Of a DNA stretch of 64,000 nucleotides, positions 1,560 through 53,146 are shown in pieces; position 1 is the first letter of the stretch; each line of letters begins with the position of its first letter. Source of the stretch: a virus; the IMG/VR virus record IMGVR_UViG_3300026521_000161, positions 42,142 through 106,141 of that record. The stretch is one strand, 5' to 3'. The position numbers and the translations under genes are program-made. The notes under the pieces were generated by a model. That model was given only the letters and a program-made list of their open reading frames with translations, did not search any database and was not told the DNA's origin.

Positions 1560-2018
1560 GTATACTCTTTTATAAAAACTAGTTAATAGAGATTTATTTT
1601 CATCAATAAGTTTAATAATCTCGATAGGTAGTTGTCTACCAAATAAAATCCTCTCCATCATACCTCTATTATTAAATAGGTGCATGAATTTAGAATACAT
1701 AAGAGATCTGAATAATGATTCAAATAACCCATATTCAACTGTTATCTTTTCGTTTAACTCTTTAACTAAAGCTTTAGCTAAGATAGAAATAACAATTTTA
1801 AATTTATTACTATCTCTAAAATCATCTCTACCATAATCAACATCAGCTTTATCTACTAAATAAGTAGCAATAACTAACGTCATTAATTTACGTTGGTCTT
1901 CTGTAACCACATCTATGTTAGGGAACGCTCTAACTAATTTAGCAAGAACATCATCTAGCAACTCTACTGACTCAGCCATATTATCTGGCTCCATATTTAC
2001 ACCGTTTATTAAAATCAC
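1557..2018 (-). CDS. Hypothetical protein, 153 aa, GTG start
   Basis: Not recognised. The GTG at 2018 is preferred as start because AAGGA sits about six bases upstream; its GTGA overlaps the TGA stop of the 486-aa gene upstream, so the two are translationally coupled. The product is mostly helical with no cysteine pairs or membrane segment. Its only clue is this tight pairing with a degenerate membrane metalloprotease-like protein, suggesting they act together. The start at the internal ATG (residue 9) is possible but lacks a good ribosome binding site. Confidence 0.75.
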   Translation of the reverse strand: MILINGVNMEPDNMAESVELLDDVLAKLVRAFPNIDVVTEDQRKLMTLVIATYLVDKADVDYGRDDFRDSNKFKIVISILAKALVKELNEKITVEYGLFESLFRSLMYSKFMHLFNNRGMMERILFGRQLPIEIIKLIDENKSLLTSFYKRVY

Positions 2019-3475
2019 GACAATTCCTTTAATTTAAATTTCTCTTGCATTATGTAAAGTTCATTTTCTTGCAAGTTTTCTGTAAGAAAATTTATATCAT
2101 CTATTTTGTTATAGTCTAAATCTCTACTAGGTTCTAACATACTATCGACGACACTTATCTTCTCTTCTGTTTGTTTAACTAGATCTTTGACAAGATCTAA
2201 TTGCCTCATTATATTATCTTTACCTATCTCACCAGCATCTGTTTTTCTTAACTCTCTTATAAGTTCTAATTTTATCTGTTTTAATCTTCTCTGTATATTA
2301 TCTTTTTTAACCATAGTACCTGGGTCGTTAAGTACTAATCTACTAAATACATCACTTATAAATTTAGATAACATAGCGAAGAAGTAAGAGATTAACCTTA
2401 CAGTAATATATGTTAAAAATATCATTAACCCTAAAACACTAAATAGTACAGTAACCACAACAGCAGCTAATAAAGAAAATACGGTTAAGAACGTTCCTTT
2501 ATTATTTGCATCATATACTCTTCCATCTTTAGAAACACCTATATCTCTATCACCTACTTTAACTATCATAGAAGCTAATAAATCACCTATACCAAATCTA
2601 GTAGCAAATTGATCAGATAGCCTTTCATAATCTAATACTATAGTTGTATTTGTTTTACTTACTCTATAAGTTTTTAATATAAAACTATCTAATGTTTCTA
2701 ATGTTTTAACAGGAGTAGAGAAGTCTGTTTTAACGTCTATAGTTGTTTTATCTATCGCTATCTTAATAGCATCTATAGGTTCTTTAGAACCGCTAAAACG
2801 CTCCTTTAAAAAAACATCAGCTAAAGTTTTCGTTGCGTTAGTAGTTGATGTCATGTATTCTAATCTAGTAAAAATAACACCCACCTGTTTTAATAATAAC
2901 GCAGCTACTTCATCTGGCTCTAACCCAGCCATTTTAGCAGATAAAAAATTTATGTTAATAACAAACTTTGATCCCTCTAAACCATTTATCCTAGCATTTT
3001 CTAAATCAATAGTTATACCATCATTATCTAGCGCGTTCTTGATATCGTTAAGTATCTTATATAACTTCTCTTCTCTACTATTTTTAATAACTTTATTTAA
3101 GATATCTTTACTTTTAGGAAATAAATCAGACATACTATTCATAGCTACATTAAGTAACTTATAATTTAAAGAGGGCATGATTACCCTAGATAGATCATCT
3201 AACTCTCTACGCGTGTTCTCTACAATAATACCAACACCAAATCTTTTAGATAGAATATCACTTATATTATCTAGGTTCTTTTTATACATACTATCTTTAA
3301 CGATTCGTTTATATTTATCATATACTTTCATATGCCTATTTCTATCTAAATCCATCATAGTTACATTATCCATTCTTAGATTATAGATGTTAAATATATT
3401 ATTAACCTCTCTAGTTAGCCTAATAACTAGTTCTAAATCTCGCTGTGTTTCTATTACTTCATTACCTACTAACAT
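2015..3475 (-). CDS. Membrane protein, degenerate M48-like metalloprotease paralogue
   Basis: 486 aa. I align it by eye to both protease modules of the 1162-aa protein at 45510-48998: a KRFGVGI segment near residue 77 matches YERFGINI and YKRFGLSI there; EPDEVAALLLKQVGVIF (residues 186-202) matches TKSEFVAIILHEIGHVF, but HExxH is replaced by KQVGV; ERLSDQFATRFGIGDLL (284-300) matches EIVADDFSTRMGMGKEL, keeping the E and D of the M48 ExxxD motif. A long hydrophobic stretch at about 328-370 spans the membrane once or twice, followed by a charged helical tail, the same order as in each module of the larger protein. Known: M48 peptidases need the HExxH histidines for zinc. Inference: this copy is catalytically dead and may be a structural or regulatory partner. 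Reads from a TTGAATTTAAAGGA-type leader near 3490. Confidence 0.72.
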   Translation of the reverse strand: MLVGNEVIETQRDLELVIRLTREVNNIFNIYNLRMDNVTMMDLDRNRHMKVYDKYKRIVKDSMYKKNLDNISDILSKRFGVGIIVENTRRELDDLSRVIMPSLNYKLLNVAMNSMSDLFPKSKDILNKVIKNSREEKLYKILNDIKNALDNDGITIDLENARINGLEGSKFVININFLSAKMAGLEPDEVAALLLKQVGVIFTRLEYMTSTTNATKTLADVFLKERFSGSKEPIDAIKIAIDKTTIDVKTDFSTPVKTLETLDSFILKTYRVSKTNTTIVLDYERLSDQFATRFGIGDLLASMIVKVGDRDIGVSKDGRVYDANNKGTFLTVFSLLAAVVVTVLFSVLGLMIFLTYITVRLISYFFAMLSKFISDVFSRLVLNDPGTMVKKDNIQRRLKQIKLELIRELRKTDAGEIGKDNIMRQLDLVKDLVKQTEEKISVVDSMLEPSRDLDYNKIDDINFLTENLQENELYIMQEKFKLKELS

Positions 3476-9663: not shown

Positions 9664-11466
9664 TTAACGTCTATATCTGTTGTATGTTGCGTGTGGCGCA
9701 CTGTAGTGCTGCCTTGCAGTAGACATACCAAAACCAGTAGAACCAACTGACGCAGAAGCATATGCAGATGCAATGTTTTGTAGGTTATTAAATTCAGAAT
9801 ATCCGATAGATGGATTATCAGTATCTGGAGTATAACCACCATCCATAGCACGGCTTGTTAATTCATCGATGAAAGCTCCATCTAAAACAACTCTAACTGC
9901 TCTACCAGTAATAACTGGTTTAAGGTTAAGCATTGTAGCAACTTTATCGATAACTTCAAGTTTTAGTGTATATGGATCTTTACCTGTTGATGACACACAG
10001 ATGTCCTCTGGTGCATTAGAATAAATCCAATCGATTAATAAGCCAGGATCATTTGTGTGTTTAGCGATGAACACTGTGTCGATCTCTCTGATGTCTCTAG
10101 GATTAGACTCATTATCTAGGAACTCACCTAGTGGAACATACATAGTCGCAGCAGCAACTGGAATATCAGGCATTTCACTTCCAACAAGATCTGAAGCTGC
10201 ATTTAAAATATCTTCTGTAGCGAAGCGTCTACTAGCTTTATCAGCTAATGCAGTAAATGGTCTTAAGTACGGATAATCAGAACCAAACTCTTCAATATCT
10301 AAAGCAAAGATAGGCTTTGGAACGATATGCTCTCTGATGATATCGTTAACGATTTCTGGGCTAGCTTTCTCATCGTTGAACGAAATTTTCTCACCATATT
10401 TACGCCCATCACCTTGGTAGTTAAATAGGAAGTTAAGCGGACCAGCATCTTTCTCTACAATAAGATTTTTAAGTACACCACGGTTAGTAAACGTTGTAGC
10501 ATTGATCATAGATAATAACGCATAGTTGATTGTAGGTGCAGCACCAATGAACTCATTAAGGATGATCATAGGTTCAGCCATACGTTTAAATTTACCTGTA
10601 TATCTATCTGTATCTTCACTAATGATATACTCGATGTAACCAGCAGTAGTTGTTAACTTGTTACGACCGCCTTGACCATTTAATCTTCTTGCACTTGTAT
10701 TTTTAACGATAGATACCTCAACGTTGAAGTCTGTACGTACATTACGACCTAACATGTTGATAGAGCTACCTGAGTTAAGACCAAGATCTAAAACTAATCT
10801 ACCATTTTCAGTTACAGCATCAATAGCATCTACAGTGATGTCACTCTCGATACCAGTGTCTTTTGCATAGTTAGAAACAATGATATCTTGTGCATATCTA
10901 GCGATGATTTCAGCAGTTTGCTCTAATGGAGCACCAGTAGGCATGATAACACCTTCACAGAATACTAAATCTTCCTCTTTTGTTTCCATAGCACGACATA
11001 GTACAGCTGTTGCAGCTTCGAAGAAAATATCATCAAAACCATCTGCAGTAACAAGAACATCAGAACTGTTTTTAATGTTAAAGCTTTCAACGATTGTATG
11101 TACGTCTAAAGGAGCACGACCAGTAGCTTCTAGTAGTGTAGAGAAGTAATATGTTTTACCGTTATCGCCTTTGTAAGCGAATACCAAGTGACTGAACTCG
11201 AAATCAAATTTGTTAAGATCCATCTTGATGAACTTGATATCAACTTTTGTATGCTTAAGTGTTTTTTGCGCTATCTCTAAAAAGCTCTCTAGAATTTCAT
11301 TGTCTCCATAGTTACCGATAAGTAAACTATCTGCACCAGATAAACCAAGAACATTTAAACTTTGTCTTTGTTGTCTTTCTCTTCTTTGTCCAGTTCTTTC
11401 AGAACCACCTCTTGTTTCATTTAGGTTTTCTAAACCTTCGTCGAAATTTACTTTTTCGAATGCCAT
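9664..11466 (-). CDS. Candidate chimallin (phage nucleus shell protein)
   Basis: 600 aa. The first about 35 residues are polar and low-complexity (TRGGSERTGQRRERQQRQS) and the last about 40 are Ser/Ala/Gly/Tyr/His-rich, ending NRYRR, flanking a folded core of about 520 residues with no enzymatic motif that I can read. Known: chimallins are about 600-630-residue proteins with flexible N- and C-terminal segments that tie protomers into a lattice around replicating phage DNA. Length, disordered ends, its own unit with a strong ribosome site (AAAGGAAATACT), and a promoter element of the same class as phuZ all fit. I cannot confirm identity from memory of the family sequence. The alternative is an abundant virion protein; it does not look like the phiKZ-type major capsid protein, which is larger and processed. 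Confidence 0.5.
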   Translation of the reverse strand: MAFEKVNFDEGLENLNETRGGSERTGQRRERQQRQSLNVLGLSGADSLLIGNYGDNEILESFLEIAQKTLKHTKVDIKFIKMDLNKFDFEFSHLVFAYKGDNGKTYYFSTLLEATGRAPLDVHTIVESFNIKNSSDVLVTADGFDDIFFEAATAVLCRAMETKEEDLVFCEGVIMPTGAPLEQTAEIIARYAQDIIVSNYAKDTGIESDITVDAIDAVTENGRLVLDLGLNSGSSINMLGRNVRTDFNVEVSIVKNTSARRLNGQGGRNKLTTTAGYIEYIISEDTDRYTGKFKRMAEPMIILNEFIGAAPTINYALLSMINATTFTNRGVLKNLIVEKDAGPLNFLFNYQGDGRKYGEKISFNDEKASPEIVNDIIREHIVPKPIFALDIEEFGSDYPYLRPFTALADKASRRFATEDILNAASDLVGSEMPDIPVAAATMYVPLGEFLDNESNPRDIREIDTVFIAKHTNDPGLLIDWIYSNAPEDICVSSTGKDPYTLKLEVIDKVATMLNLKPVITGRAVRVVLDGAFIDELTSRAMDGGYTPDTDNPSIGYSEFNNLQNIASAYASASVGSTGFGMSTARQHYSAPHATYNRYRR

Positions 11467-16892: not shown

Positions 16893-16904
16893 GATATATA
16901 GTAA

Positions 16905-17050
16905 GTGAGTGTAGCTCTGTGCTGCTCTGTTTCTTTTATCCGCTCACGTTTCGCCTTTGGGGGCTACACGACCGCTCCGATTAGTCCTCTCCCCCCAGAA
17001 AATGTCTGGGTCATGGATCGAGGTTGTGACTTTATTATGGTCACAGTTGT
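16905..17050 (-). ncRNA. Candidate structured noncoding RNA (region B)
   Basis: GC-richer than its flanks and without an ORF. A 7-bp closing stem GTGTAGC/GCTACAC (16909-16915 / 16963-16969) encloses 47 nt; a second hairpin CCCAGA/TCTGGG is at 16994-16999 / 17005-17010; a third, TGTGAC/GTCACA, is at 17025-17030 / 17040-17045. The strong terminator at 16862-16892 lies at the minus-strand 3' end, which favours minus transcription. The remaining gap 17051-17168 is AT-rich and holds the helicase leader. No known RNA family is recognised. Confidence 0.45.
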
Positions 17051-17168
17051 CATCGTTAGATAATTAATTATTTTAATCAATATATAAATATTTATCTATT
17101 ATTAGATATTTACTAATTACAGGTATACCATTAGTTAGAATGAATATAGACAGTTAAAGGAAACAATA

Positions 17169-21783: not shown

Positions 21784-24180
21784 TTATTCTATTTTGTCTG
21801 TTGGTTCTTCAGGTTCATCACCATCTTCTGGAGTTTCATCCACATTACCTTCAGTAGATTCATCTTCATTAACTTCTGGAGTTTCTGAACCACCGTCATC
21901 TATGTTATCATCATTATCAAATTCGTTATCTTCTTCCTCTTCTTCTATTTCACCGTTACCTATTTTATCTCTACGTTTATCGAACTTAGATACCATTTTC
22001 TCATTCTCTTTAAGGAACGGTATGATAATCGCATCTAAACTTTTACCAAATACGTTAAAATCAGTTAACAAGTTAAACATAGGTTTACCGTCCTCATCTA
22101 ACGTAAACATCTTAGAGAAATCAGGTAAAACATTATTTTCATCTATATATCTTCTAAGTAACGTATGTTTAATTAAACCCTTAAGATCATCTAAGTCATC
22201 ACCTATAGTACCTAAATAATTAGATGGTATTAAATCACTACTAAATAGTTTATCTATAACGTTATCTAATAACTCTGTATATTTATCTACCATATCAGCA
22301 ACATTAGTTTCCTCTGTCACTTCTGGCTTAGGCAATGTTATTTGTATGCTATCTATAACTCTAGTTATCATATATTCAACGATATCGTCGTCACTAGCTT
22401 TCTTAAGAGCTTCTTTATTAACATCATTGTTATTGTTAACTAAGAATCTTTTCATCTTACTATTAAGCATATCTGATAAAGCGCTACGTAACATACTCTT
22501 GAATTTACCGTCGACTTTTAACTTCTTCTGTATATCTTTTGTTAAAAGTTTTTCATATTTAGATTGTAATTTAAGTATGCGTTTTCTTAATAGTATATTA
22601 TTAGCAATAATGGTTGTAGCGAATTCTGGACTATATCCGTTATCTATCATTTCTGGAGTTAAGTATAAACTAGTTATGATAAGTTTATCTATATCTTCTT
22701 TAAGGGTTTCATCTATTGGGTTTATCTCATTAGCTTTTTCTTCTATATCTATATTTACATCTGGTAATCCAGGATGTTTAAAGTTAAAACTAAATCCTAA
22801 TTTATGAACCCAATCAGTTAGATCATCAACATTTAAGATACCTATAGGCATACTTATCTGTCTGTTCCTAACTATCTCGGCCATGATGGCTTCCATAGAT
22901 TTTTTATATTCTGGATCATCTGGATCTAAGTCCACTTTAACATCTGTAGTAGTTACACTACTTTTTATATATGATAACATCTTAGTAAAAACTAACATAG
23001 CACGCATGCTCATTAATACAGACAATCTTTCTAATAAACTCTCACCCATACCATTTTCTCTAAAATTAATAGCATAGTAACTAACAAGATTAGTAGGTAA
23101 AAATAAAATGTCTATAGGTGTTTTAGAGATGATGCTATCTGCCATATCTAACACTATATCGTCGTCTAACTCGAACTGTAAATCACTAAAGTCTTTATAA
23201 GGACTATTATCTAAGTAACCTTTTAACTTCGTTTTAATAAGTACATCTCTTAATCCGTCTAGTCCCTCTATAGTAGGGGCATCTTGTGTCATAGATTTAA
23301 GACTATTATTAACCTTAGCTATTAGTCCGTCTGAACTTGTAGGGTTACTACTCTTTCCTTGTTTCTTTTTCTTATTTTTTAAAAGAACAAAATACCCATA
23401 GTGTTTACTAGGGTCTTCTTGGCTAGTTATAGGTATTATTTTGTTAGGACTCATCTTCTTGATTATTGGTTTATCGCTACTTATATCAGTGTCGTCCATT
23501 ATACCGAAATGATCATCATGTATCATAAGAGCTTCTAAACCAGGACTAATGCTTTCGCCACTTAGTGTATTATTAACTATGTAGTTAGCTTTTTTCTCAT
23601 TGAGAATGTCTTCTGCTAATATAGATGGGTTAGAAGTAAACTTAAATATTTTATCTTTATCTTCTTTTATGGAATCTATATAATCACCCTGTGACATAAG
23701 CAAACTTTCAACACCAACACTAATGTCACTTTTTATTGTTTTAAACATGTCACTTATATTTTTAGGCGGTATATTAAGTTCTACATAAGCACCCTTCTTA
23801 AATAATGATTCCTCCACTATCTCATTTAACTTATCACTAAGACCATATGTGTTTTCTGCATATGTATCTATCATACCACTTATTAGCGATTGTGCTTCAG
23901 TAGGTAATTTAAACCCACTTAGTTTATATGTTAAACCACCAGTTCCCATATCGTTAGGTGAAGTAACTAATGACGTAACAAGTTCTATAGCTAAATCTAT
24001 ATCTGGGAATATCTCCTGTATATTTTTAACTAAGTTTTCCTGTCCATATCCATGATCGGATAACTTAACTAGTTTTTTAAAATCAACAGCTTCCACTGTT
24101 TTATTAATAGCAGTTGTTTTCTTAGCTATTTTAGGTAACAAACTTTCGTATTGCACGGGTTCTTTTATAGTTCTTGACAT
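21784..24180 (-). CDS. Portal protein candidate, 798 aa
   Basis: Start taken at the second in-frame ATG (24180), because AAAGG abuts the first (24186). The size, an N-terminal alpha/beta part with PDIDLAIELVTSLVTSPND, a long helical middle (ESLLERLSVLMSMRAMLVFTKM; EFATTIIANNILLRKRILKLQSKYEKLL) and a very acidic disordered C-terminus (EIEEEEEDNEFDNDDN) fit phiKZ-type portal proteins, which form the dodecameric ring at the head vertex. The helix-rich stem-like region followed by an acidic tail is the main clue; no catalytic motif is expected. Divergent from the 1151-aa gene with only 58 nt between. A head-completion or other virion protein is the alternative. Confidence 0.55.
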   Translation of the reverse strand: MSRTIKEPVQYESLLPKIAKKTTAINKTVEAVDFKKLVKLSDHGYGQENLVKNIQEIFPDIDLAIELVTSLVTSPNDMGTGGLTYKLSGFKLPTEAQSLISGMIDTYAENTYGLSDKLNEIVEESLFKKGAYVELNIPPKNISDMFKTIKSDISVGVESLLMSQGDYIDSIKEDKDKIFKFTSNPSILAEDILNEKKANYIVNNTLSGESISPGLEALMIHDDHFGIMDDTDISSDKPIIKKMSPNKIIPITSQEDPSKHYGYFVLLKNKKKKQGKSSNPTSSDGLIAKVNNSLKSMTQDAPTIEGLDGLRDVLIKTKLKGYLDNSPYKDFSDLQFELDDDIVLDMADSIISKTPIDILFLPTNLVSYYAINFRENGMGESLLERLSVLMSMRAMLVFTKMLSYIKSSVTTTDVKVDLDPDDPEYKKSMEAIMAEIVRNRQISMPIGILNVDDLTDWVHKLGFSFNFKHPGLPDVNIDIEEKANEINPIDETLKEDIDKLIITSLYLTPEMIDNGYSPEFATTIIANNILLRKRILKLQSKYEKLLTKDIQKKLKVDGKFKSMLRSALSDMLNSKMKRFLVNNNNDVNKEALKKASDDDIVEYMITRVIDSIQITLPKPEVTEETNVADMVDKYTELLDNVIDKLFSSDLIPSNYLGTIGDDLDDLKGLIKHTLLRRYIDENNVLPDFSKMFTLDEDGKPMFNLLTDFNVFGKSLDAIIIPFLKENEKMVSKFDKRRDKIGNGEIEEEEEDNEFDNDDNIDDGGSETPEVNEDESTEGNVDETPEDGDEPEEPTDKIE

Positions 24181-24238
24181 TTTCATCCTTTAGACACCCC
24201 AAGCTTGATTTGAGAAACAATCTATCAAGGAGTTAGTT

Positions 24239-37041: not shown

Positions 37042-37107
37042 TTACTTTATCCTCCTTACTAAATTAATATTATATATGTATAAAAACCTCGACATAACGT
37101 GAATTCA

Positions 37108-37116
37108 TTGAAATAA
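37108..37116 (+). promoter_or_regulatory. TTGAAATAA promoter-like element
   Basis: TTGAAATAA ends 6 nt before the AAAGGA ribosome site of the 385-aa gene; matches the elements at 53147 and 9586. Confidence 0.4.
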
Positions 37117-37131
37117 CTATAAAGGATTATC

Positions 37132-38289: not shown

Positions 38290-38315
38290 CTACAAGGCAC
38301 ATGCCTTGTAGTTAT
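38286..38315. terminator. Bidirectional hairpin terminator
   Basis: 14-bp perfect stem (38286-38299 / 38302-38315) between convergent genes. Confidence 0.82.
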
Positions 38316-38319
38316 CTCA

Positions 38320-40428
38320 TTACCATAATTCAGAATACGATACAGCTTTATTACCGCCAAATATACTATAAGCTGGCCCTATATCTAACATGTCACCAAC
38401 TTTAGCACCTAAGTACTCAGGTGACGTTATTAGGTCGGCTGTTTCAAAAAGTCTAGACATTTTTATCTTAGCTCTATTAAATACGTGTGTGGAGCTATAA
38501 AGATCTCTACCACATAAGGCCTGTATATATCTAGACAATGATGATTCATCATCAAACATAGCTCCATTTATATCTAATAAGCCACTAGGCATAGGAGCCG
38601 ATATAAGTTCACTAAAATCAGTAACTGTAAAACTTACCTCTATAGCTAAAGGTCTGCGTTGTTTATTGTAAGGTAGGTTACTAGTTCCTCTTGTTATACT
38701 AAGACTAGTTATCATACCTAACGATATTTGTTGCCTACCTCTCATGAACATACTACATAAGAAAGGGGATGTATGTGATCTTGGCCCAGTAGATAATGGT
38801 AACATACCAGCCATAATAGATGCTAATGGTATGTAAATATTACGCAGTTGTGCTACGGGATGCGCGCTAGGACTTATTAAGGTCATTTTGAAATTTAGTG
38901 ATGGAAAACTAACATCACTTTTACTCCATTTCTTCTGCACATCTACATTGGCACCAGAAAGTATACTACCTATAACATCACTAACGCCCATAGTAACACC
39001 ACTAGTCGCACCTACTGCAAAATCAGTAACAGCATTAACAACACTACCTAACCCAGGTATCCCGTCTAAACCTATATTAAACTTCATATTCCTATATGTA
39101 GATCCCATAGAATTAATAACGTTACCTGTAGCTATTTCATCAACGCTATTGCTAAACGATTCAGTTGTTGAAGGCATGTGTTCTACTCTAAATACAGCAT
39201 ATCTAGCACCTTCGTTAAATACAGCTTTAGTTGTCTCCATCGCTTTATCTATATAACCCTTCTCATCTTGTTTTCTAGCTTCTCTTTTATAAGTACCGTC
39301 TTTATCAGCAGCAAATGCGTCTTTAAGTTCTTTACCACCTTCTTTAAGTTCTTTTAATAATGCTGAGAATGTTACTTTGTTTTTAGGGTCATCTTTACTA
39401 AAACTTTTATCATTAGTAACTGGTCCCTTTATTTTATCCCATAGAGTTTCTTCTTCATCTTCTGTTATAGGGTCTAGCGGATCTAAAGCTCCAGTAGTTC
39501 TTATTAACATATCTAAAGTCTCTCTATCCATACTAGCAGCTGATATATTATCCAACGCCGTTAATTTAGCCTCATGCATCCTGTTGTATAACTTTTGTGA
39601 TTTAGTAACCATAGCTTGTACGTTAATACCATTACCAGCAGTTATCAAACCAGGCATAAGTTTTTTAATAGCTTCCATATCAGCAGGGTCTACTTTCAAT
39701 GGCGTTCCTACCTTCTTAGGATCATTACTATCGAACATAGGTGATAATAAACCTAACTCAGTGGCCATCATTGTTACTAGTGTATTAACACTACTCCAAT
39801 ATAAAAACATAGTACGTTTTAGATAATACTGATCAAATTTACCATTACTAGCAAGCATAGCTGAACCAACTGTAACAGCTAATTTACCTAATAATAAAAT
39901 AGGTGCTATAATAGGGAAAGCTACTATAAGCGCTCCTGTACCAAATATCCAACCAACATCATAGAAAAATGGTGATCTAGCACTATTAGCTATAACTGCT
40001 TTTTTATAATCAACTGCACCCATAACATACATTAATACATTATTAAATTCAGGCACACCAAATTCAAAAAACACATTACTACTATTATCATCAATAGCTT
40101 CTGAATAATATCTACCCATCCCATAATCAGAACTCATTAATCCAACCTTTACTTTAGGTCGATCGCCGTACATACCAGTACTTCTAACATCGGCATATCT
40201 AGTATACTGAGGCATACAGTTTATAGATATATTACCACCCATACTACTATCAGTAAATTTAACATCAGCAGTGGATGCGAATCTAAGATATTTATAGTCC
40301 ATTTCTAATTCCATACCGCTAACCATAAATCTATCGGCTATCCATTCACCATCTGTAAATGGTAGTTCATCATTTTGTATTATCTCTTCGTTAGGCTCGT
40401 CACTAAACAATCCATTTAATAGATCCAT
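38320..40428 (-). CDS. Virion/baseplate-associated protein candidate, 702 aa
   Basis: TATAAGGAGTAAGT precedes the ATG. The N-terminal part is beta-rich; a hydrophobic segment at about 158-190 (GTGALIVAFPIIAPILLLGKLAVTVGSAML) could insert in a membrane; a charged helical middle follows, then a Gly/Ala/Val stretch (SVVNAVTDFAVGATSGVTMGVSDVIGSIL) and a conserved-looking C-terminal domain (FKMTLISPSAHPVAQLRNIYIPLASIMAGMLP). It follows the series of small genes at 43398-40464 on the same strand. Similar long proteins with internal hydrophobic parts in phiKZ-like phages are virion proteins; exact role unknown. Confidence 0.68.
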   Translation of the reverse strand: MDLLNGLFSDEPNEEIIQNDELPFTDGEWIADRFMVSGMELEMDYKYLRFASTADVKFTDSSMGGNISINCMPQYTRYADVRSTGMYGDRPKVKVGLMSSDYGMGRYYSEAIDDNSSNVFFEFGVPEFNNVLMYVMGAVDYKKAVIANSARSPFFYDVGWIFGTGALIVAFPIIAPILLLGKLAVTVGSAMLASNGKFDQYYLKRTMFLYWSSVNTLVTMMATELGLLSPMFDSNDPKKVGTPLKVDPADMEAIKKLMPGLITAGNGINVQAMVTKSQKLYNRMHEAKLTALDNISAASMDRETLDMLIRTTGALDPLDPITEDEEETLWDKIKGPVTNDKSFSKDDPKNKVTFSALLKELKEGGKELKDAFAADKDGTYKREARKQDEKGYIDKAMETTKAVFNEGARYAVFRVEHMPSTTESFSNSVDEIATGNVINSMGSTYRNMKFNIGLDGIPGLGSVVNAVTDFAVGATSGVTMGVSDVIGSILSGANVDVQKKWSKSDVSFPSLNFKMTLISPSAHPVAQLRNIYIPLASIMAGMLPLSTGPRSHTSPFLCSMFMRGRQQISLGMITSLSITRGTSNLPYNKQRRPLAIEVSFTVTDFSELISAPMPSGLLDINGAMFDDESSLSRYIQALCGRDLYSSTHVFNRAKIKMSRLFETADLITSPEYLGAKVGDMLDIGPAYSIFGGNKAVSYSELW

Positions 40429-43499: not shown

Positions 43500-44522
43500 T
43501 TATAATGCCATACCGAATTCATCTAGCTCCGCATCATCAAGAGCATCGAATGAATCGTACTTAGCATTTTTGATAGCTTCGATTCTTTCTAGTTCCTCTT
43601 TAAGATAAGCCACTTCGGCATTAAGAACACCTCTACGTTGCGTTAAGAATAACGGATACGTACCGAATCTATCATAATTCGTAGTGATAGTACCAGTTTT
43701 ACTTTGTTGTGGAGTGATAGTCATATTGATATCTTTAGTATCCTCACTGATGATAGTTCTAACTAAGATCACTGACTCATCCACCAACTCACCAACAGCA
43801 ACACCTAAGCTATAAATACCGGGAGCTGTTCTAAAAGATTGATACTTATCAGGTCTAAAAAAGTTGATCATATCCTGATGATCTATGTTCTGAATAGAAC
43901 CTGAGATGAACATGCTTATAACAGATAACATTTTAAAAATCTTTTCATTAACCTCTGCTTCTGTTTTAGGACTTGTAACACCACCTATAGTATTACTATA
44001 GTAAATATTACTAACAGCTTTTTTAGATTTAAGAGCAACACCCTGGATAGATGTTATGGTGTTGATTGTATTGTTTAATGCTAAGTAACTACTACTATCA
44101 CCAACAGTAACAGTTATAACAGTATAGTCTTGTTCTAACATAGCTTTAAGCAATAGAACACCAGCACTAGAACCTGTACCACCAGAACCACTAGATACGA
44201 TAACATAGTAATCATTTAGATTCTTACTAACACCATTATCTAAGAACTCTCTAACGGACTTATTCATGTGTGCTATGTTCTCTTTTGACTTTCTTTCACC
44301 ACCTGTACCATCTAATCCTTTACTACTAGCTGAACTAGAAGTGATTTTAAAGAATCTATCTTCGTACTCAGGATAAGCTTGGATAGTCTTTTCTGTACTA
44401 TCTATGAATGAACATGTCACATCACTGAACCCTTCACCAAGTTCTTTTAATCTAGGATATATAGAAGCTACTACATTAGTCCCACACCCACCTACTGCTA
44501 TCAAATTTAATTTACCAGTCAT
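43500..44522 (-). CDS. phuZ: PhuZ-like tubulin/FtsZ-family GTPase
   Basis: 340 aa. N-terminal nucleotide-binding loop AVGGCGTN (residues 9-16), tubulin signature SGSGGTGSS (111-119, G-box GGGTGS type), and T7-loop NIDHQD (212-217) with the Asp residues that complete GTP hydrolysis across the filament interface. The C-terminus is acidic (FDALDDAELDEFGMAL), as in PhuZ where the tail supports filament assembly. PhuZ makes a bipolar spindle that centres the phage nucleus and carries capsids to it; known in phiKZ-group phages. Slightly longer than the about 315-residue PhuZ of 201phi2-1. A single-gene unit with AAGAAGGAGTCATT, a promoter-dyad element 30-58 nt upstream and a palindromic terminator. 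Codon use suggests strong expression. Confidence 0.85.
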   Translation of the reverse strand: MTGKLNLIAVGGCGTNVVASIYPRLKELGEGFSDVTCSFIDSTEKTIQAYPEYEDRFFKITSSSASSKGLDGTGGERKSKENIAHMNKSVREFLDNGVSKNLNDYYVIVSSGSGGTGSSAGVLLLKAMLEQDYTVITVTVGDSSSYLALNNTINTITSIQGVALKSKKAVSNIYYSNTIGGVTSPKTEAEVNEKIFKMLSVISMFISGSIQNIDHQDMINFFRPDKYQSFRTAPGIYSLGVAVGELVDESVILVRTIISEDTKDINMTITPQQSKTGTITTNYDRFGTYPLFLTQRRGVLNAEVAYLKEELERIEAIKNAKYDSFDALDDAELDEFGMAL

Positions 44523-45478: not shown

Positions 45479-45510
45479 ATACTGTATGTAGCTATTGCTA
45501 CATACAGTGT
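45479..45510. terminator. Hairpin terminator after the protease-kinase gene
   Basis: 14-position stem (45479-45492 / 45497-45510, one G-U) with a TATT loop and a U-tract for minus transcripts. Confidence 0.78.
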
Positions 45511-48500
45511 TATTTTTTAACTAAATATTTTTTATACTTATTTAAATCTATAAGTGTGTCTACTCTTAAACCTAATGAGATATCATTAACTATAGGATCA
45601 AACATTATTATCTTACCTTTATTATTAACGCCCCAATTACCGCTATGTAAGTCTAATCTAACTCGACCTTTAACATGTTCATCTTTTAAAACATCTTTAA
45701 TAAGGTCTAATTGTTCAAATATCTCTTTAGGTATCTTAACTTCATTACTGCTCTTTAATTTATTCTTTAGGATATCTATAACTTCATTTATATCTATTTC
45801 ACCATATTCTTTTAGAACCTCTTCTAACTCATCATATACTTTATGTATAACATCAACCTTCTTATCATCTTTAAAAGACTCTAAGTAATCCATCTCTACT
45901 ACATATAGAGCTTTTTTATATTTACCGATAAGCACAACGTCTATGCCGTAAACGTTTATTAAAGGGTTTCTTAGTATCCATAAAACTTTATCAGAATCTA
46001 TAGTAACAGTAACGACTGTTTTATCACTAGGTTCATCGTCACTATCTATTTCAAAAATACTAAAACCTGTATAACCTTCTCTTATAGTAACTGGTACAGG
46101 AGTTTTTAAAAGATACTTATGATTTATATCTTCTATTTTAACTCCATATTTAAGAAGTTTCTCATTAAGTTTATCTAAATCTTTAGAATTCAATAACTCA
46201 GTAACACGTTTACTCCATAGATCGAACTCTTTATAATAAATAGTATTAGCTGGTTCTTCTATAAGATTATGGTCAGACATAGCCTCATTGCCATTAGCTA
46301 GTTCGTTATACATAAGTTTATGGTAGAACATATCGTTATTTATTAATTTATCTAAATTATCCACTATCCTAGCATCTAATGTTATATCTTTACCAGCATT
46401 GCCATTAGGATTAAACATAGATAATAATAAACTACCATAACCCATATCCTCTATTTCTTTCTTAGTTTTCTTAACTTCTGTTATAGTATTTAATATCTCT
46501 TTAACTTCTTCTTTACTTAAATCACTCTCTCTTAGAACTTTTATAAGGGATCTAACTACAGAATCAAATCTTTCTGGTAGTTTCTCATATGGAAAATATT
46601 TACCAGCTATTAGTCTATAAATAGAAGATAAAGCGTAAGCTAGGAATATGAATTTAAGGTTAAGCATTAACACCTTACCAAATAAGCTTAACCTACCACT
46701 AAACGCCAACATGGTAGCTATCGATAATGATATATACGTTATTAATGGTAGCATTATGAAAGCTTTGTTGTGTATCTTAAATGTAATTAATCTATCTAAC
46801 CCACTGACTAACTCTTTACCCATACCCATTCTAGTAGAAAAATCATCAGCAACGATTTCACTATCAGTCATAAATGACTTAACACTACCTATCCTATTAT
46901 CTTTAGTAGCTACATCTGTTAATAGATGCATGCCGAAACTAGGATCAAAGACTCTTATAGCACTGGTGATAGTTAGTAATCCATTAGCTAACATTTGTTT
47001 AAATATTCCAATACTCCATCCATGTAACGTTAGCATCTCTTCAGCATCTTTTTTATATTCTGATTTATACTCTATAACATGTTTCTCTTTAGACTTCTCT
47101 CTGTTAACAAATGAATCTAATAGCTGCGTATTACTAACCACTAATCTTTTCATAGATTCTATATACGTAAACAGATGTCCTATTTCATGTAAGTAAATAG
47201 CGGTCATCTCCTCTGGAGTTAAGTCCAATCCAGTTATAGTAGTACCGAACATATCCCTACCATATTCTATAAAAACTATACTTTTATGTTTATCTTTCTT
47301 CATACCGTGGATATATGCTTTCTCTAAATCAACGACAAAGTTATTACCGTTCTTAAAGTCTTTCAGTATTTCTCTATTGTTGTGTATATAAAGTAAGTAA
47401 CCTTTTATATTAAAAGTTGATTTACTATAGTATTTTCTCCAATCGGATATACCTTTTTGGTCTATAACGTTAAAAGGAACACAAGCCCAACCATGACCAA
47501 AGCCGACAGCAGGTAATGCCATGATACTTAAACCAAATCTTTTATATGTTATCTCTTCTAACTCTTCCGATATAGACATAAATGTAGCTACGTTTCTAAT
47601 TATAGAATTATCTTTGACCTTAGCGAAGAATGATATTAATTCATTAACGACAGGATCCTTTTTACCCATATAGTTTATAGACTCTAATCCAACACTAAAT
47701 CTAGCTTCTTGTATGTATAGCTTAGTGTTTTCTAGTTCATTAAGTTTGCTAGCTAGTTCATCTTCTGTATTCAGGTTACCTACTAAATATTCAGACATAA
47801 GCCCTATAAGAACTTTACCGTGCGCTGAGTTATCTATATCCTCTAAATCTTTTTCTACCTGTTCGTATTGGGCTAATAATAATTTCTTATCTTTTTTATT
47901 CATATCCGTTAATCTTAAAACTTCTACCATAGATGTTTTAATATGTTCGACACGTTGTTTAAGACTACCGTGCTCGTCATTGATAGGGTTTCGTTTATTA
48001 TGCATATATAGTAATTTACTTATACTGTTAATAGTTAATGCTATTTCTAACGCGATAGCCGCCATTATAACGATACCACCAGGTAATAACAATGATAACA
48101 ACAAGGCTCTAACGGCCATACCTAATATAGACATAAGTACAATGACAGCACTAGCGTTACTAAAAGATAACTGGTTAACCTTATTAAGTTTAACTAATGC
48201 TCTACTTAACTCTTCCCCGTACCCAAATTTAACAGTGAAATTATCTGCTTCTATCTCTGGATTGGTTTCTCCTGTACCATGACCACCTAATGGTATAGAC
48301 ATAAGGTCCTTTTTAACTTTTTCATATATCATGCTTAGCCCATTTGTTTCAGAGCTTGGGTTTTTACTTATACCTAATTCAGAGGTAGTTTCTGTTAATG
48401 GTTTATTACGTAAGAAATTACTTAATAATATGGATGTAGTTACGGCTGATCTACTATACAATTCTAATAGCGTAAATACATGACCTATTTCATGTAAGAT

Positions 48501-48998
48501 TATAGCTACGAACTCACTTTTAGTTAAATCCCTAACCATTCTTAGAGATATAAATAGAGGTACATAGTAATCATCTGGCAGGTTTAGGAATTTAGCATCC
48601 TTTTTATCCAGTATTAGAATATTACTATCTAACCATCTGTTAAAATCCTTTATCTGTTTTATACCATGTCTGACATCTTTACCTCTGGTAGACTTAAAAG
48701 TCGTTAGACTTATTTGGTCAGGATTAAATATAGGTATAACTGCAAATGTGTTACTATTTCTTAATAATATATTTATACCAAATCTTTCATAAGACTTATC
48801 TTTAAACTCTTTCTCTATTTGTAAAAAAGAAAAATCTAATTCTTTCTTATTAATAGTTTTCTTTTCGTAGTATAGAGAATGTAACTTCTCTAATCTATCA
48901 TATGTACTTTCTATAACCTTTATAAAAGAATCATTAGCTTGCGTGCCTATCATCGACTCAACACCCTCTTTTATTCCTAAATCTATTTTAAACATCAT
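45510..48998 (-). CDS. Double M48-like membrane metalloprotease fused to a kinase-like domain
   Basis: 1162 aa. Module 1: HEIGH at residues 169-173 and E-I-x-A-D at 248-252, then hydrophobic segments at about 283-325. Module 2 repeats the order: HEIGH at 604-608, EIVAD at 714-718, hydrophobic segments at about 746-795. HExxH with a downstream ExxxD is the zinc site of M48 (HtpX/Ste24-like) peptidases, membrane enzymes that cleave membrane or exported proteins. The C-terminal part ends with RLDLHSGNWGV (1114-1124) and IMFDP (1131-1135), the catalytic-loop and metal-binding pattern of protein kinase/phosphotransferase folds; its N-lobe is not clear. ATG 48998 or the next codon is the start after AAAAAGGAATA. 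The fusion and the internal duplication are unusual; a degenerate third copy is at 2015-3475. Confidence 0.78.
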   Translation of the reverse strand: MMFKIDLGIKEGVESMIGTQANDSFIKVIESTYDRLEKLHSLYYEKKTINKKELDFSFLQIEKEFKDKSYERFGINILLRNSNTFAVIPIFNPDQISLTTFKSTRGKDVRHGIKQIKDFNRWLDSNILILDKKDAKFLNLPDDYYVPLFISLRMVRDLTKSEFVAIILHEIGHVFTLLELYSRSAVTTSILLSNFLRNKPLTETTSELGISKNPSSETNGLSMIYEKVKKDLMSIPLGGHGTGETNPEIEADNFTVKFGYGEELSRALVKLNKVNQLSFSNASAVIVLMSILGMAVRALLLSLLLPGGIVIMAAIALEIALTINSISKLLYMHNKRNPINDEHGSLKQRVEHIKTSMVEVLRLTDMNKKDKKLLLAQYEQVEKDLEDIDNSAHGKVLIGLMSEYLVGNLNTEDELASKLNELENTKLYIQEARFSVGLESINYMGKKDPVVNELISFFAKVKDNSIIRNVATFMSISEELEEITYKRFGLSIMALPAVGFGHGWACVPFNVIDQKGISDWRKYYSKSTFNIKGYLLYIHNNREILKDFKNGNNFVVDLEKAYIHGMKKDKHKSIVFIEYGRDMFGTTITGLDLTPEEMTAIYLHEIGHLFTYIESMKRLVVSNTQLLDSFVNREKSKEKHVIEYKSEYKKDAEEMLTLHGWSIGIFKQMLANGLLTITSAIRVFDPSFGMHLLTDVATKDNRIGSVKSFMTDSEIVADDFSTRMGMGKELVSGLDRLITFKIHNKAFIMLPLITYISLSIATMLAFSGRLSLFGKVLMLNLKFIFLAYALSSIYRLIAGKYFPYEKLPERFDSVVRSLIKVLRESDLSKEEVKEILNTITEVKKTKKEIEDMGYGSLLLSMFNPNGNAGKDITLDARIVDNLDKLINNDMFYHKLMYNELANGNEAMSDHNLIEEPANTIYYKEFDLWSKRVTELLNSKDLDKLNEKLLKYGVKIEDINHKYLLKTPVPVTIREGYTGFSIFEIDSDDEPSDKTVVTVTIDSDKVLWILRNPLINVYGIDVVLIGKYKKALYVVEMDYLESFKDDKKVDVIHKVYDELEEVLKEYGEIDINEVIDILKNKLKSSNEVKIPKEIFEQLDLIKDVLKDEHVKGRVRLDLHSGNWGVNNKGKIIMFDPIVNDISLGLRVDTLIDLNKYKKYLVKK

Positions 48999-49488: not shown

Positions 49489-50985
49489 CTATTTAAAGAC
49501 TATCTTAGTTGGTTGTAATAATATCTTGTTTTGGCTTCTAAAGCTATTGACATTAAAGCTATATGTCATGCGTATGAACTTAGTTCTTTTAAGCTCATTC
49601 TCTATGTGTTCAAGTTCATTCTTTTTAATAGAATAAAACACACTCATATTACTTTCTGTATTAGGATCAAATTTAACTTTAAAGCTTAGTAAGATATTAC
49701 TGCGTTTATATATCCTATATGATTCTATATAAAAATCACTACAGAACATCGGTTTCTCATACCCTATACCATAAGGACCAGCATTTATAACATCGAACAT
49801 AGTTAATAATAATTTTTTAGTACTAAAGATATAATCTTCCACATAAGTATTTTTTATCTCTACCACATCATATTTACTAACCTCTTCCTTAAGAAGGTCA
49901 TAAAACTCTTTAAGGTTAGGTTTTATCTTAACGCCGATAGCTTTTTTATGTCCACCATGTTTAAGTATGATATCGCTCTTATTAGCTACTTCTGTTAATA
50001 CATCTTTAAGATTAAGTCCATCCTCTTGGCTACGACCTGACCCTATATAAACATAACCATCAAATCTCTTTTTCTTAGTAAATACGATAACTATTTTATA
50101 ATTATCGTTATACATAACATTATTAGCGATGATGCCCTGTACTCCATCACTATCATCAACAACCATAACTTTTATCTTACCGTCTGTATATTCTTCTTTC
50201 TTACCAACATCAACTGCTTTACTCTGGATATCCTTACGATTTTTATTTATCTCTTTTATATCTTCATAAAGTAGTTCAGCTATATCTTCTGTTGGCGACA
50301 TAAGTAACTCATAACTCAGCCTAGCGTCAGCTATCCTACCAGGTGAGTTTAGCATAGGTATAACGTCATACCCTAACGTAGTTTCGTCCATAAGATACGT
50401 CTTAGCATTTTTTCTTATAGTAAGTGACCAAAATGGATCATGCTTTATATTAAGACTATTTAAATCCGATAAAGTTTTTATAAGTAACTTTCTATTAACA
50501 AAGTTCTTAAGATCCATACAATCAGATATAAGAGTTAATCCTATATATGTTATAAGATAATACATTTTATCTAATTTAGACTTGTCAGGATTGCCGTTCG
50601 ATAAGAAAGCATGTGCTAATGTAAAATAAACCACACCAGTACCCGTCATATCTGATAATATATTGTTATCATAACGTTGTGGATTGATGAATGCTGTGGC
50701 TGACGTTGGTGCTGTGTCCTGATCGAATAAATGGTGATCAGTTACTATAAATGGTATACTTGTTTCAGACATGATAGTTTCTATATTAAGCTTATCATTA
50801 GAGCCATGGTCACTAGTTATAATAAGACCAATATCGTCATCATTTTTACAAATATTTATTATCATATTTGTAAGAGCTGAGTTGATACCGTTACCGTCAG
50901 AACGTTTATTAACAACGACTTCTATGTTATCATATTCGTAAACATCTAAAAAAAATTTATGAGCGATGGCGGCACTCGTGATGCC
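49489..50985 (-). CDS. recJ: RecJ-type single-strand exonuclease, exon 2
   Basis: 498 codons after the intron, beginning with GITSAAIAHKFF, which completes the DYDxDG motif started by exon 1. Other DHH-phosphoesterase motifs follow: IITSDHGSND, IVTDHHLFDQ (the DHH motif) and GTGVVYFTLAHAF; the DHHA1-type GGHKKAIG is at about residue 330 of this exon. RecJ enzymes degrade single-stranded DNA 5' to 3' in recombination and repair with Mn2+/Mg2+. Exons joined give about 610 aa, near the usual RecJ length. The ATG at 50997 is inside the intron, so it is not the real start. Confidence 0.85.
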   Translation of the reverse strand, partial: GITSAAIAHKFFLDVYEYDNIEVVVNKRSDGNGINSALTNMIINICKNDDDIGLIITSDHGSNDKLNIETIMSETSIPFIVTDHHLFDQDTAPTSATAFINPQRYDNNILSDMTGTGVVYFTLAHAFLSNGNPDKSKLDKMYYLITYIGLTLISDCMDLKNFVNRKLLIKTLSDLNSLNIKHDPFWSLTIRKNAKTYLMDETTLGYDVIPMLNSPGRIADARLSYELLMSPTEDIAELLYEDIKEINKNRKDIQSKAVDVGKKEEYTDGKIKVMVVDDSDGVQGIIANNVMYNDNYKIVIVFTKKKRFDGYVYIGSGRSQEDGLNLKDVLTEVANKSDIILKHGGHKKAIGVKIKPNLKEFYDLLKEEVSKYDVVEIKNTYVEDYIFSTKKLLLTMFDVINAGPYGIGYEKPMFCSDFYIESYRIYKRSNILLSFKVKFDPNTESNMSVFYSIKKNELEHIENELKRTKFIRMTYSFNVNSFRSQNKILLQPTKIVFK

Positions 50986-52792
50986 CGTTGTTTTCATATG
51001 TATCGCTAGTACACACAGTTCTCAGTATCTCTACATGAACTTCCCATCCATTACAGATGGATACAAGACTATATCATTATCCTAAAATATTTTAGGATAC
51101 GAAACGTTTCGATTTAAGGACTGCCATCCACCCGCTCGGGCCCTACTCTACTCGCTTTAACTACATATGTAGCCATGGGGTTATTACACTACCCATGTGA
51201 TTAACTAAGTCTGTCGCCAACTTAGTATAGCTTTCGATAGTCGTTGAACTCACACACTCTAGTCATACTAGATCACTCTCGTGGTTTAAGGTGCTTCGCT
51301 GCGTCGATTCCGCCAGGATATAACGTTTTCACCATGCCTCTAGTTGCTCTATTACGCCTGAGGTATTACAGTATGTTTCCACCTGTAAGTGGTAGTTATA
51401 TCTTTTTCAGCGGTCCCCGCAATTAGTTTCGTTTGCTTATAGGATTACTCCTATAAGGGACTTACTTAAAATGTAAGCTACAATTTTCTTTCTCTTTAAA
51501 AGTAATCTTAGTTTTTTTATCTATATAAGAATATATTGTTCTATAATCCTTATTGAAAAATTTTCTTAATGAATTTATAGACGTAAACTCTTCGACAATA
51601 ACGTCATCTTTATCCTTAACCATTATGACTTTAGGTTTGTTAATAGGTGTTTTATTAGACGGTTCTCTCCACTTAGCGACTGTAAATTTACGCACTAACC
51701 ATCTATCTGTTAGTAAATAATTATCACATCTGCGTAGGTATAAAGTTAATGTACTTTTAGGGACACCTGTAATGTTAGATGCGTCACTTATGCTTTTAAC
51801 AGTATAAATAACGTTATTAATAACATCGCGCACTTGGACGTGTTTAAGAACTATTTTGCGTTTTTTAATATGTAATATTTTATATCCATTGTTACGGCAA
51901 AATTTTTCTATTGTACTCTTTTTACTGTTTTGTGAGTCAAAGAATTGCTTAAATGTTTTATATTTAAATAACTCTCCGTTTTTCTCAAGTACTAAGCTAA
52001 AGCTTCTAGTATCATCTCTCTCGTAAGCCCATCCAGTGAACGATCTTTCCCTATATAACTCAAATCTACCATTACTACCAGACCATACTTTACCGAAATA
52101 CATAGGCGCTCTTTGGGTGTCTATTTTACTTCGACCTATTATTTCACTAGCTTCGCTAGAGGACATAGCGGTTGAGGTAACTCCAGTATCTATATCACGT
52201 ATTAAAAATAGACCTCTACTACTAACAATTGTTTTTGTTACATTTAAAGTAGATGAAACCCATCTAAGATTATCGGCATGGTAATTAGTCTTGTCGTCAT
52301 CAATATGATCGACTATGTTATTAATAACATAATCATCATTTTCGCACCACGCCAGTGCTACTAATTTATGTACGCCTATATTATAATAATCCCCTGTTAA
52401 TAGCTTAACGCGTATGTTGTAATAACCAGATTTCGTTAACTCGTAACCACGATTAATTATTTTACGAGCTACGCAATCTACTAACACGCCATCTTTACTA
52501 ATAGCTATATTTGTAAAGAATGGTACGAAATTATAAATAACGCCATCTACATAGACGAATGGTCTATTAACAAATACTGGCATTTTATCTGGTAGTTTAG
52601 AGACACCATGTACTTTGTGTCTAGTTAGAGTGTATGATACATCATTTTTATTGTCTGCAAGAGTTGTATAATCACGTTGCATTATATTCTTTTCTAAGAT
52701 TATTTTTCTTTTTTCGTTACACATACTAATCCTTACTATTTGTATATGTAACAAACTACAAAGTAAATTGTTTCTACATTGTTAGTATGTTA
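50986..52792 (-). other. Group I intron in recJ (about 1.8 kb)
   Basis: Boundaries inferred from reading-frame joining (GAT at 52793-52795 to GGC at 50983-50985) plus the group I rule that exon 1 ends in U and the intron ends in G. Core elements on the minus strand: TAATTGCGGGGAC (complement of 51411-51423), GGAATCGACGCAGC (complement of 51298-51311) and GTTCAACGACTAT (complement of 51237-51249), recognisable as the P, Q and R type conserved strings. A P2-like hairpin lies at 51436-51457. An HNH gene sits between the 5' end and the core. The 50998-51461 stretch has no gene; it is ribozyme core. Confidence 0.85.
51462..52724 (-). CDS. HNH homing endonuclease encoded in the recJ intron
   Basis: 420 aa from the ATG at 52724, which has AAGGATTAGT upstream; longer in-frame starts have none. 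Core HNH motif: VHKLVALAWC (H119) ... NIVDHIDDDKTNYHADNLRW (about residues 137-155, D139-H140 and N152), of the type found in phage intron endonucleases. Downstream are two NUMOD-like DNA-binding repeats: YTVKSISDASNITGVPKSTL (about 307-326) and FTSINSLRKFFNKDYRTIYSY (about 380-400). It would cut an intronless recJ allele to spread the intron. Location inside the intron and intact motifs suggest it is functional. Confidence 0.85.
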   Translation of the reverse strand: MCNEKRKIILEKNIMQRDYTTLADNKNDVSYTLTRHKVHGVSKLPDKMPVFVNRPFVYVDGVIYNFVPFFTNIAISKDGVLVDCVARKIINRGYELTKSGYYNIRVKLLTGDYYNIGVHKLVALAWCENDDYVINNIVDHIDDDKTNYHADNLRWVSSTLNVTKTIVSSRGLFLIRDIDTGVTSTAMSSSEASEIIGRSKIDTQRAPMYFGKVWSGSNGRFELYRERSFTGWAYERDDTRSFSLVLEKNGELFKYKTFKQFFDSQNSKKSTIEKFCRNNGYKILHIKKRKIVLKHVQVRDVINNVIYTVKSISDASNITGVPKSTLTLYLRRCDNYLLTDRWLVRKFTVAKWREPSNKTPINKPKVIMVKDKDDVIVEEFTSINSLRKFFNKDYRTIYSYIDKKTKITFKEKENCSLHFK

Positions 52793-53128
52793 ATCCACAT
52801 CATAGTCGCTAACCAATAATATTTTTTTATTGTTAACTATGGCTTCATTTATAGCACTCGTAGAATTGACTACATGTGGTAACCATTTTTCTATAAAATT
52901 CTCATTTATGATATCACTAAGTTTAGTATTAAAATAGTTTTTTATGGTATCTAAATCTTTATACCTATTAGCGACTATTTTTTTAGTTATATCTGAATTA
53001 AAATATCTATTAAGATATGTTAATGTTTCTGGGTCCTGTTTCGTTATGACAATATTATCATTACTAAGACTACTTATAATTTCTCTCAATGGCTTTTCTT
53101 CACCATTTGGAAGTTTAACTTCTGTCAT
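52793..53128 (-). CDS. recJ: RecJ-type exonuclease, exon 1
   Basis: 112 codons. Start at 53128: AAGGA lies 6 nt upstream, while the earlier in-frame ATG at 53146 is only one to two codons from the promoter element at 53147-53155. The exon ends ILLVSDYDVD, that is, five of the six residues of the DHH-family motif DYDxDG; the next codon in the genome is an in-frame TAA belonging to the intron. Without splicing the protein would be a catalytically useless fragment. Confidence 0.82.
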
Positions 53129-53146
53129 TTTCATTCCTTCTTTCAT

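Follow-up and report, generated by a model that had tools for sequence, protein, structure and literature searches.

The closest described relatives of the gene considered here are head proteins of phiKZ-like phages. The family, phrog_2767 ('unknown function', 442 positions), was found throughout these phages in protein searches of annotated genomes, and includes phiKZ gp84, 201phi2-1 gp145, SPN3US gp45, EL gp52, and PhiPA3 gp086. SPN3US gp45 is a mid-abundance head protein (PMC5694885). The 201phi2-1 protein is annotated as similar to phiKZ gp84 and EL gp52 and as a virion protein by mass spectrometry, and PhiPA3 gp086 and others are likewise labeled virion proteins. The annotated members examined, from Xanthomonas, Vibrio, Klebsiella, Serratia, Burkholderia, Aeromonas, and Erwinia phages, are all single units of about 414–450 amino acids. 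They usually have a DNA polymerase gene on one side and gp85-gp86-gp87 type genes on the other. The gene described here lies in a 64,000-nucleotide stretch of viral DNA, referred to as the window (IMG/VR record IMGVR_UViG_3300026521_000161, positions 42,142 to 106,141). Its single open reading frame (ORF) encodes two units of this family followed by a kinase-like domain.

Both the head location and the cutting of SPN3US gp45 have been established by others. In the study of cutting (PMC10052503), gp45 is cut by the prohead protease after ASE-20 in every analysis. The specificity given there for the protease is A-x-E, with Val favored at P4 and Ser at P1', and the phiKZ homologues of the conserved cut proteins are all reported as cut. 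An uncharacterized zincin-like metallopeptidase was already noted in this phage group by Iyer et al. 2021 (PMC7824862), and the distribution of their example protein suggests that it belongs to the phrog_2767 type. Some database records name members of the family peptidase, M48 lipoprotein protease, zincin protease, or beta-barrel assembly-enhancing protease. The canonical family, its zincin nature, and the kinase-like fold are already known; the fusion, the tandem, the cutting sites at the boundaries, and the dead canonical copies are undescribed as far as the searched literature and collections show.

The ORF shares with the phiKZ gp84 group its family, its zinc site, the hydrophobic helices after the E..AD motif, and the N-terminal [A/S/G]-x-E motif. 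It differs in having two units and a kinase-like domain, in its internal cutting motifs, and in lying at a recJ-phuZ locus rather than the gp84-gp85-gp86-gp87 locus. The reading favored here, with a probability of roughly 0.55, is that the gene encodes a virion polyprotein, from which cutting inside the capsid would yield two membrane zinc proteases and a single kinase-like protein, to be delivered with the DNA.

The ORF begins with an ATG at 48998, ends with a stop at 45510 on the minus strand, and is 1162 amino acids in length. The plus strand across the same interval is closed by stops throughout. The paired HEIGH and E-I-x-A-D motifs, the hydrophobic segments, and the DLHSGN...MFDP segment listed in the initial annotation are all present exactly where it placed them, on this minus-strand ORF (Table 1). 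Its proposal that a phage protein combines two M48-like zinc-protease units with a C-terminus of kinase fold is borne out by profiles, models, and fold searches, and the phage also encodes chimallin and PhuZ. Structure prediction gave a kinase fold at the C-terminus and a weak M48 fold match, as described below. The head-protein family, the five single-unit fusions, the dead copy elsewhere in the window, and the predicted inter-domain cut sites go beyond what that annotation contained.

The phrog_2767 profile matches both halves of the protein in two stretches (E 6e-54). Units 1 and 2 are homologous: their mutual alignment spans 410 columns at E 1e-19, with an identity of only about 25%. This low identity, together with the presence of single-unit fusions at the same place in five other viruses, rules out an assembly duplication as the source of the tandem. 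Unit 2 groups with the fusion clade in the tree, on a long branch. It may be a duplicate of unit 1 or another copy that was inserted, both of which are compatible with the tree. A whole-protein scan of viral contigs gave no relatives, and smaller alignments did; the 18 family members together were too divergent for their alignment to serve as a search query. Weak matches of the ORF to CorA, Cytomega_gL, and similar entries were disregarded.

Both units contain HExxH and, in a downstream helix, the third-ligand Glu within an E-x-x-x-D motif. Residues H169, E170, G172, H173, E248, D252, and R349 do not vary across 42 aligned units taken from many viruses, and this invariance of the zinc site across the family rules out a chance occurrence of HExxH. 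The family profile matches ZMPSTE24 and Ste24p, the founding M48 members, at the third-ligand helix (E 5e-4). The stronger profile matches are designed helical proteins, matched via a helical stretch, and ZMPSTE24 is first among the natural proteases. ZMPSTE24 is also the best PDB match of the unit 1 model, which has a predicted local distance difference test (pLDDT) score of 76, and this match is weak (E 0.23, probability 0.84). The likeness to M48 proteins (Ste24/ZMPSTE24, HtpX, and BepA) consists of HExxH, an E-x-x-A-D motif about 80–110 residues further on, hydrophobic helices, and a conserved downstream Arg. The units differ from these proteins in being very divergent, in having another N-terminal part, and in an activity that is predicted only. 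Pfam M48 (PF01435) scores just below its curated cut-off (20.0 against 20.3 bits), and only 3 of 36 relatives match it at E up to 0.01. Because the Pfam score falls just short, the M48 case is drawn from motifs, profile, and fold. The assignment of both units as divergent M48-like zinc proteases, with predicted activity, is partly supported by sequence and model. Another viral contig (L061, 9569–11740) contains two adjacent separate genes of the M48-like family, both with HELGH, which represent an independent duplication.

The closest described counterpart of the C-terminal domain is the protein kinase gp0.7 of phage T7, which is a separate early protein. The corresponding PHROG (phrog_15752) matches five of the six fusion members described below, with a best E of 1.8e-7, over the hinge and the C-lobe. 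Other matches among the members are to phrog_3809 and to Ser/Thr kinase PHROGs. Residues D1116, H1118, N1121, N1125, D1134, and P1135 are invariant in the six fusions, and the D/N/D set is shared with gp0.7. In a model of residues 440–1162, the kinase-like part is confident, with pLDDT mostly 85–98. A fold search of this part against the PDB placed aminoglycoside phosphotransferases and protein kinases on top with a modest best E of 0.02, and a search of a viral library gave phage protein kinases at E of about 1e-5 to 1e-4. The usual beta-3 lysine, which pairs with the alpha-C glutamate, is absent. Beta-3 reads TVVTVT-I-D, and an invariant Lys1004 is found at the start of the helix that follows it. 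The activity of the domain is uncertain because this lysine is absent. The fold and the D/N/D residues of the kinase-like unit first proposed thus stand, with an N-lobe that is not of the usual form, and a kinase-fold C-terminus with an atypical N-lobe is supported by sequence and model. Unlike T7 gp0.7, the domain forms the C-terminal end of what is probably a virion precursor. Single Pfam matches of this domain (neurotoxin helical domain and others) were set aside, as they are weak, far below cut-offs, and on helical stretches.

The missing lysine also bears on a reading in which the gene encodes a head-maturation enzyme, with the zinc proteases making a second round of cuts in the capsid and the kinase-like part serving as a structural pseudokinase. 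Canonical members are head proteins, and maturation cleavages were suggested as the role of the canonical family by Iyer et al. 2021 (PMC7824862). The maturation cuts identified in SPN3US, however, conform to one motif, that of the serine prohead protease, and no second specificity is reported in the available part of that study (PMC10052503). The hydrophobic hairpin suits membranes better than a capsid interior, and no variation is seen in the D, N, and D of the kinase site. A head-maturation enzyme is considered improbable.

The M48-kinase fusion was found in six viruses, comprising the window virus and five others identified in alignment-based searches of viral contigs (L023, L037, L056, L092/L093, and L094, where L092 and L093 are identical proteins on two contigs). 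The five others have a single M48-like unit and the same kinase-like domain; the two-unit form occurs only in the window virus. The gene lies between a recJ-like gene and phuZ in 6 of 6 viruses, with phrog_2921 and phrog_3181 genes further out. Chimallin genes are present in the window and in the records of L023, L037, L056, and L093, and none was found on the short contigs of L092 and L094. The kinase-like domain was not found on its own in cultured phages or in 13 of 14 related viral records, and the remaining record (G001) is itself a fusion carrier. The intron of the recJ-like gene in the window is a group I intron (RF00028, 68 bits) at 51043–51480, inserted inside the catalytic motif DYDVD/G. 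It carries an HNH/NUMOD endonuclease ORF at 51462–52754.

Potential prohead-protease sites can be identified at the boundaries between the domains (a slash marks the predicted or proven cut). The SPN3US ASE-20 site aligns with a near-invariant Glu of the family, and the P3 residue is A, S, or G in 16 of the 17 sequences having the column. EGVE14/S of the 1162-residue ORF occupies this same column. Independently of the boundary motifs, the alignment of major capsid proteins places VGNE129/A of the window virus in the column of the proven SPN3US ATE-130 site, where two relatives have AGVE/A and VGYE/A. From these alignments, G-x-E is inferred to be the counterpart in this clade of the proven prohead-protease site. 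G-x-E-[SA] has 17 occurrences (16 distinct) in the 33.7 thousand residues of the virus's longer ORFs, approximately the number expected from composition. The 1162-residue ORF contains only three, at residues 14, 439, and 905, which are the exact domain boundaries (P 0.0006 in a shuffle test on this protein alone). Few positions are invariant at the junction around residue 439, which is otherwise poorly conserved, and G437 and E439 are two of them. Across the six fusions, 13 of 13 boundary windows contain G-x-E, against a shuffled mean of 0.84 and never 13 in 20,000 trials, a joint figure that overstates the case, as the windows were fixed after the motifs were known and the six homologous fusions do not provide 13 independent events. 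A fourteenth window in the script is a split profile match in L037 and was left out of the 13.

A homologue of the SPN3US prohead protease was found in three relatives with the SPN3US gp245 sequence as query; the Pfam S77 profile found no prohead protease in these viruses. Because the predicted sites separate the three domains, the mature product is probably not a single fused enzyme. The presence of two protease units and a kinase in one protein, as first proposed, is correct for the encoded product, and the mature product is probably split. The main alternative at this point is a stable, uncut multi-domain enzyme, made during infection, unpackaged and membrane-anchored, in which the kinase-like domain would regulate the proteases or mark their substrates. 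Such an enzyme would suit the position of the gene, which is next to phuZ and recJ and not in the canonical virion locus. In the searches above, the kinase-like domain was found in fused form only, which would be in keeping with a functional link. It is regarded as rather unlikely in view of the G-x-E at every boundary, including the N-terminal one that matches the proven cut of SPN3US gp45.

Two other genes bear on the same motif. A homologue of an internal head protein in L110 (15349–16842, minus strand; phrog_2497, E 3e-5) contains G-x-E-[S] three times within residues 1–104, and the neighboring gene (16904–18607, minus strand) has one such motif at residue 66. By sequence, both are likely to be further substrates of the prohead protease.

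The window virus also has a separate copy of the canonical head protein in which HExxH is replaced (Table 1). This copy occupies the canonical neighborhood beside a gp87-like gene, whereas the fused gene is in the recJ-phuZ locus, and its neighbor resembles SPN3US gp48 (E 1e-10). Separate copies in the records of L037, L093, and L056 have FEVGK, QKIGV, and KEIGY, respectively, in place of HExxH. The motif is therefore lost from the separate copy in 4 of the 4 genomes that hold one beside the fused paralogue; the 186-kb record of L023 has the fusion only, with no separate copy found. As read from their motifs, these copies have lost catalysis and remain full length. Two dead copies included in the tree cluster together, so a single loss of HExxH followed by drift is a possible origin. 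The DNA polymerase at 4485–6617 did not match the gp82-type polymerase that lies beside gp84 elsewhere. Between the dead copy and the gp87-like gene (449–2018), there is only a 153-amino-acid ORF, and the gp86/gp47-type ejection protein found at that place in other phages is apparently missing.

The survival of separate copies without HExxH indicates a non-catalytic role in the family. Such a role leaves room for a reading in which the fused units are structural or remnant only, with HExxH kept by chance and none of the three parts active. Both units and all single-unit fusions, however, keep HExGH, E..D, and the downstream Arg at about 15–37% identity to unit 1, and every genome that showed loss of HExxH also carries a fused paralogue that is intact. 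It is highly improbable that all three parts are inactive.

For the favored reading, a virion polyprotein cut in the capsid, the following course is inferred. A precursor of the phiKZ gp84/SPN3US gp45 family would be taken up into the prohead, where the prohead protease would trim it after [A/S/G]-x-E. A copy of this head-protein gene would have been joined, in the clade, to a kinase-like domain beside phuZ, and in the window virus a second intact M48 unit would have come to lie between unit 1 and the kinase-like domain. The head protein's own signal would carry the precursor into the capsid, where cuts after residues 14, 439, and 905 would set free a pair of membrane zinc proteases of M48 type and the kinase-like protein. 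Together with the DNA and the virion RNA polymerase, the released parts would pass into the host. There the proteases may insert in the inner membrane, or in the membrane vesicle in which the DNA is initially enclosed, and cleave membrane proteins. A membrane protease is a candidate for remodeling the vesicle membrane or removing host membrane proteins. The kinase-like protein would phosphorylate host proteins, like T7 gp0.7, and the old separate gene copy would keep a structural role only. More tentatively, and a little short of even odds, the gene may be an effector polyprotein, in which three enzyme modules on one chain would be packaged, separated, and co-injected, and would target the membrane and proteins of the host during the first minutes of infection; the ancestral copy would then serve as a non-catalytic structural protein.

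Several points weigh against this course, in addition to the Pfam score, the absent lysine, and the relatedness of the boundary windows given above. A prohead protease was not found in the virus's 106-kb record, which is possibly a fragment. The virion location of the fused paralogue is extrapolated from the canonical family, and its locus is a different one. Ejection of the family and every host target are proposed by analogy. The suggestion in the initial annotation that nucleus-associated host proteins are targets found no support in the analysis.

Table 1. Coordinates of the M48-kinase ORF, its parts, and related genes, numbered from the first nucleotide of the window.
Feature	Coordinates	Strand	Basis
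Whole ORF: M48-like unit 1, M48-like unit 2, kinase-like domain	45510..48998	(-)	ORF translation, motifs, PHROG matches
Predicted N-terminal propeptide, residues 1-14, end EGVE/S	48957..48998	(-)	Aligned with SPN3US gp45 cut ASE-20; disordered in model
M48-like unit 1, residues 15-439	47682..48956	(-)	PHROG profile, alignment, model, fold search
Unit 1 HEIGH zinc/catalytic motif, residues 169-173	48480..48494	(-)	Invariant in alignment
Unit 1 EIEAD third-ligand motif, residues 248-252	48243..48257	(-)	Invariant in alignment
Unit 1 hydrophobic helical hairpin, residues 281-327	48018..48158	(-)	Sequence, model
Predicted prohead-protease site VGLE/S, E439, between units 1 and 2	47682..47690	(-)	Motif analysis
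M48-like unit 2, residues 440-905	46284..47681	(-)	Self-alignment, PHROG profile, model
Unit 2 HEIGH motif, residues 604-608	47175..47189	(-)	Sequence
Unit 2 EIVAD motif, residues 714-718	46845..46859	(-)	Sequence
Unit 2 hydrophobic helices, residues 746-794	46617..46763	(-)	Sequence, model
Predicted prohead-protease site NGNE/A, E905, unit 2/kinase-like junction	46284..46292	(-)	Motif analysis
Kinase-like domain, residues 906-1162	45513..46283	(-)	phrog_15752 (T7 gp0.7-type) E 1.8e-7; model, fold searches
DLHSGN, residues 1116-1121, catalytic-loop Asp and Asn (D1116, N1121)	45636..45653	(-)	Sequence, alignment
MFDP, residues 1132-1135, DFG-equivalent metal-binding Asp (D1134)	45594..45605	(-)	Sequence, alignment
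PhuZ tubulin, flank of the recJ / M48-kinase / phuZ locus	43500..44522	(-)	Profile matches
recJ-like DHH gene, split by group I intron, other flank	49489..53146	(-)	Profile matches, intron search
Separate copy of canonical head protein, HExxH replaced by KQVGV	2015..3475	(-)	phrog_2767 E 7e-20; adjoins gp87/gp48-like gene
Chimallin (nuclear shell protein)	9664..11466	(-)	Marks virus as member of nucleus-forming group
Portal homologue with SVGVE160/S near SPN3US portal cut ATE-161	21784..24186	(-)	Helps define clade motif

Two further regions of the window were noted. An SNF2-type helicase is encoded at 17169–20258 on the plus strand and has a weak Hint-like match near residues 161–231, a stretch that PHROGs of terminases and other unrelated proteins match as well. 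This stretch is probably an intein. At 37059–38360, two long ORFs overlap on opposite strands, one of 433 amino acids on the minus strand and one of 385 amino acids on the plus strand. The plus-strand ORF is lysine-rich and has repeated P-D-F/W motifs.

In phages of this group, the DNA is first held in a vesicle derived from the inner membrane. How the vesicle forms and how it is used are open questions, as are the roles of the dozens of co-packaged proteins in nucleus-forming phages (PMC12908238, PMC13282480). A conserved, probably injected, membrane-type zinc protease would be a direct candidate for the questions that concern the early vesicle. The clade offers natural experiments in the form of a doubling of the active unit, a kinase-like cargo joined by fusion, and dead copies in which a structural role can be told apart from an enzymatic one. 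The G-x-E sites provide a prediction that is concrete and cheap, and they point to a possible route for the loading and release of enzyme cargo by a phage head.

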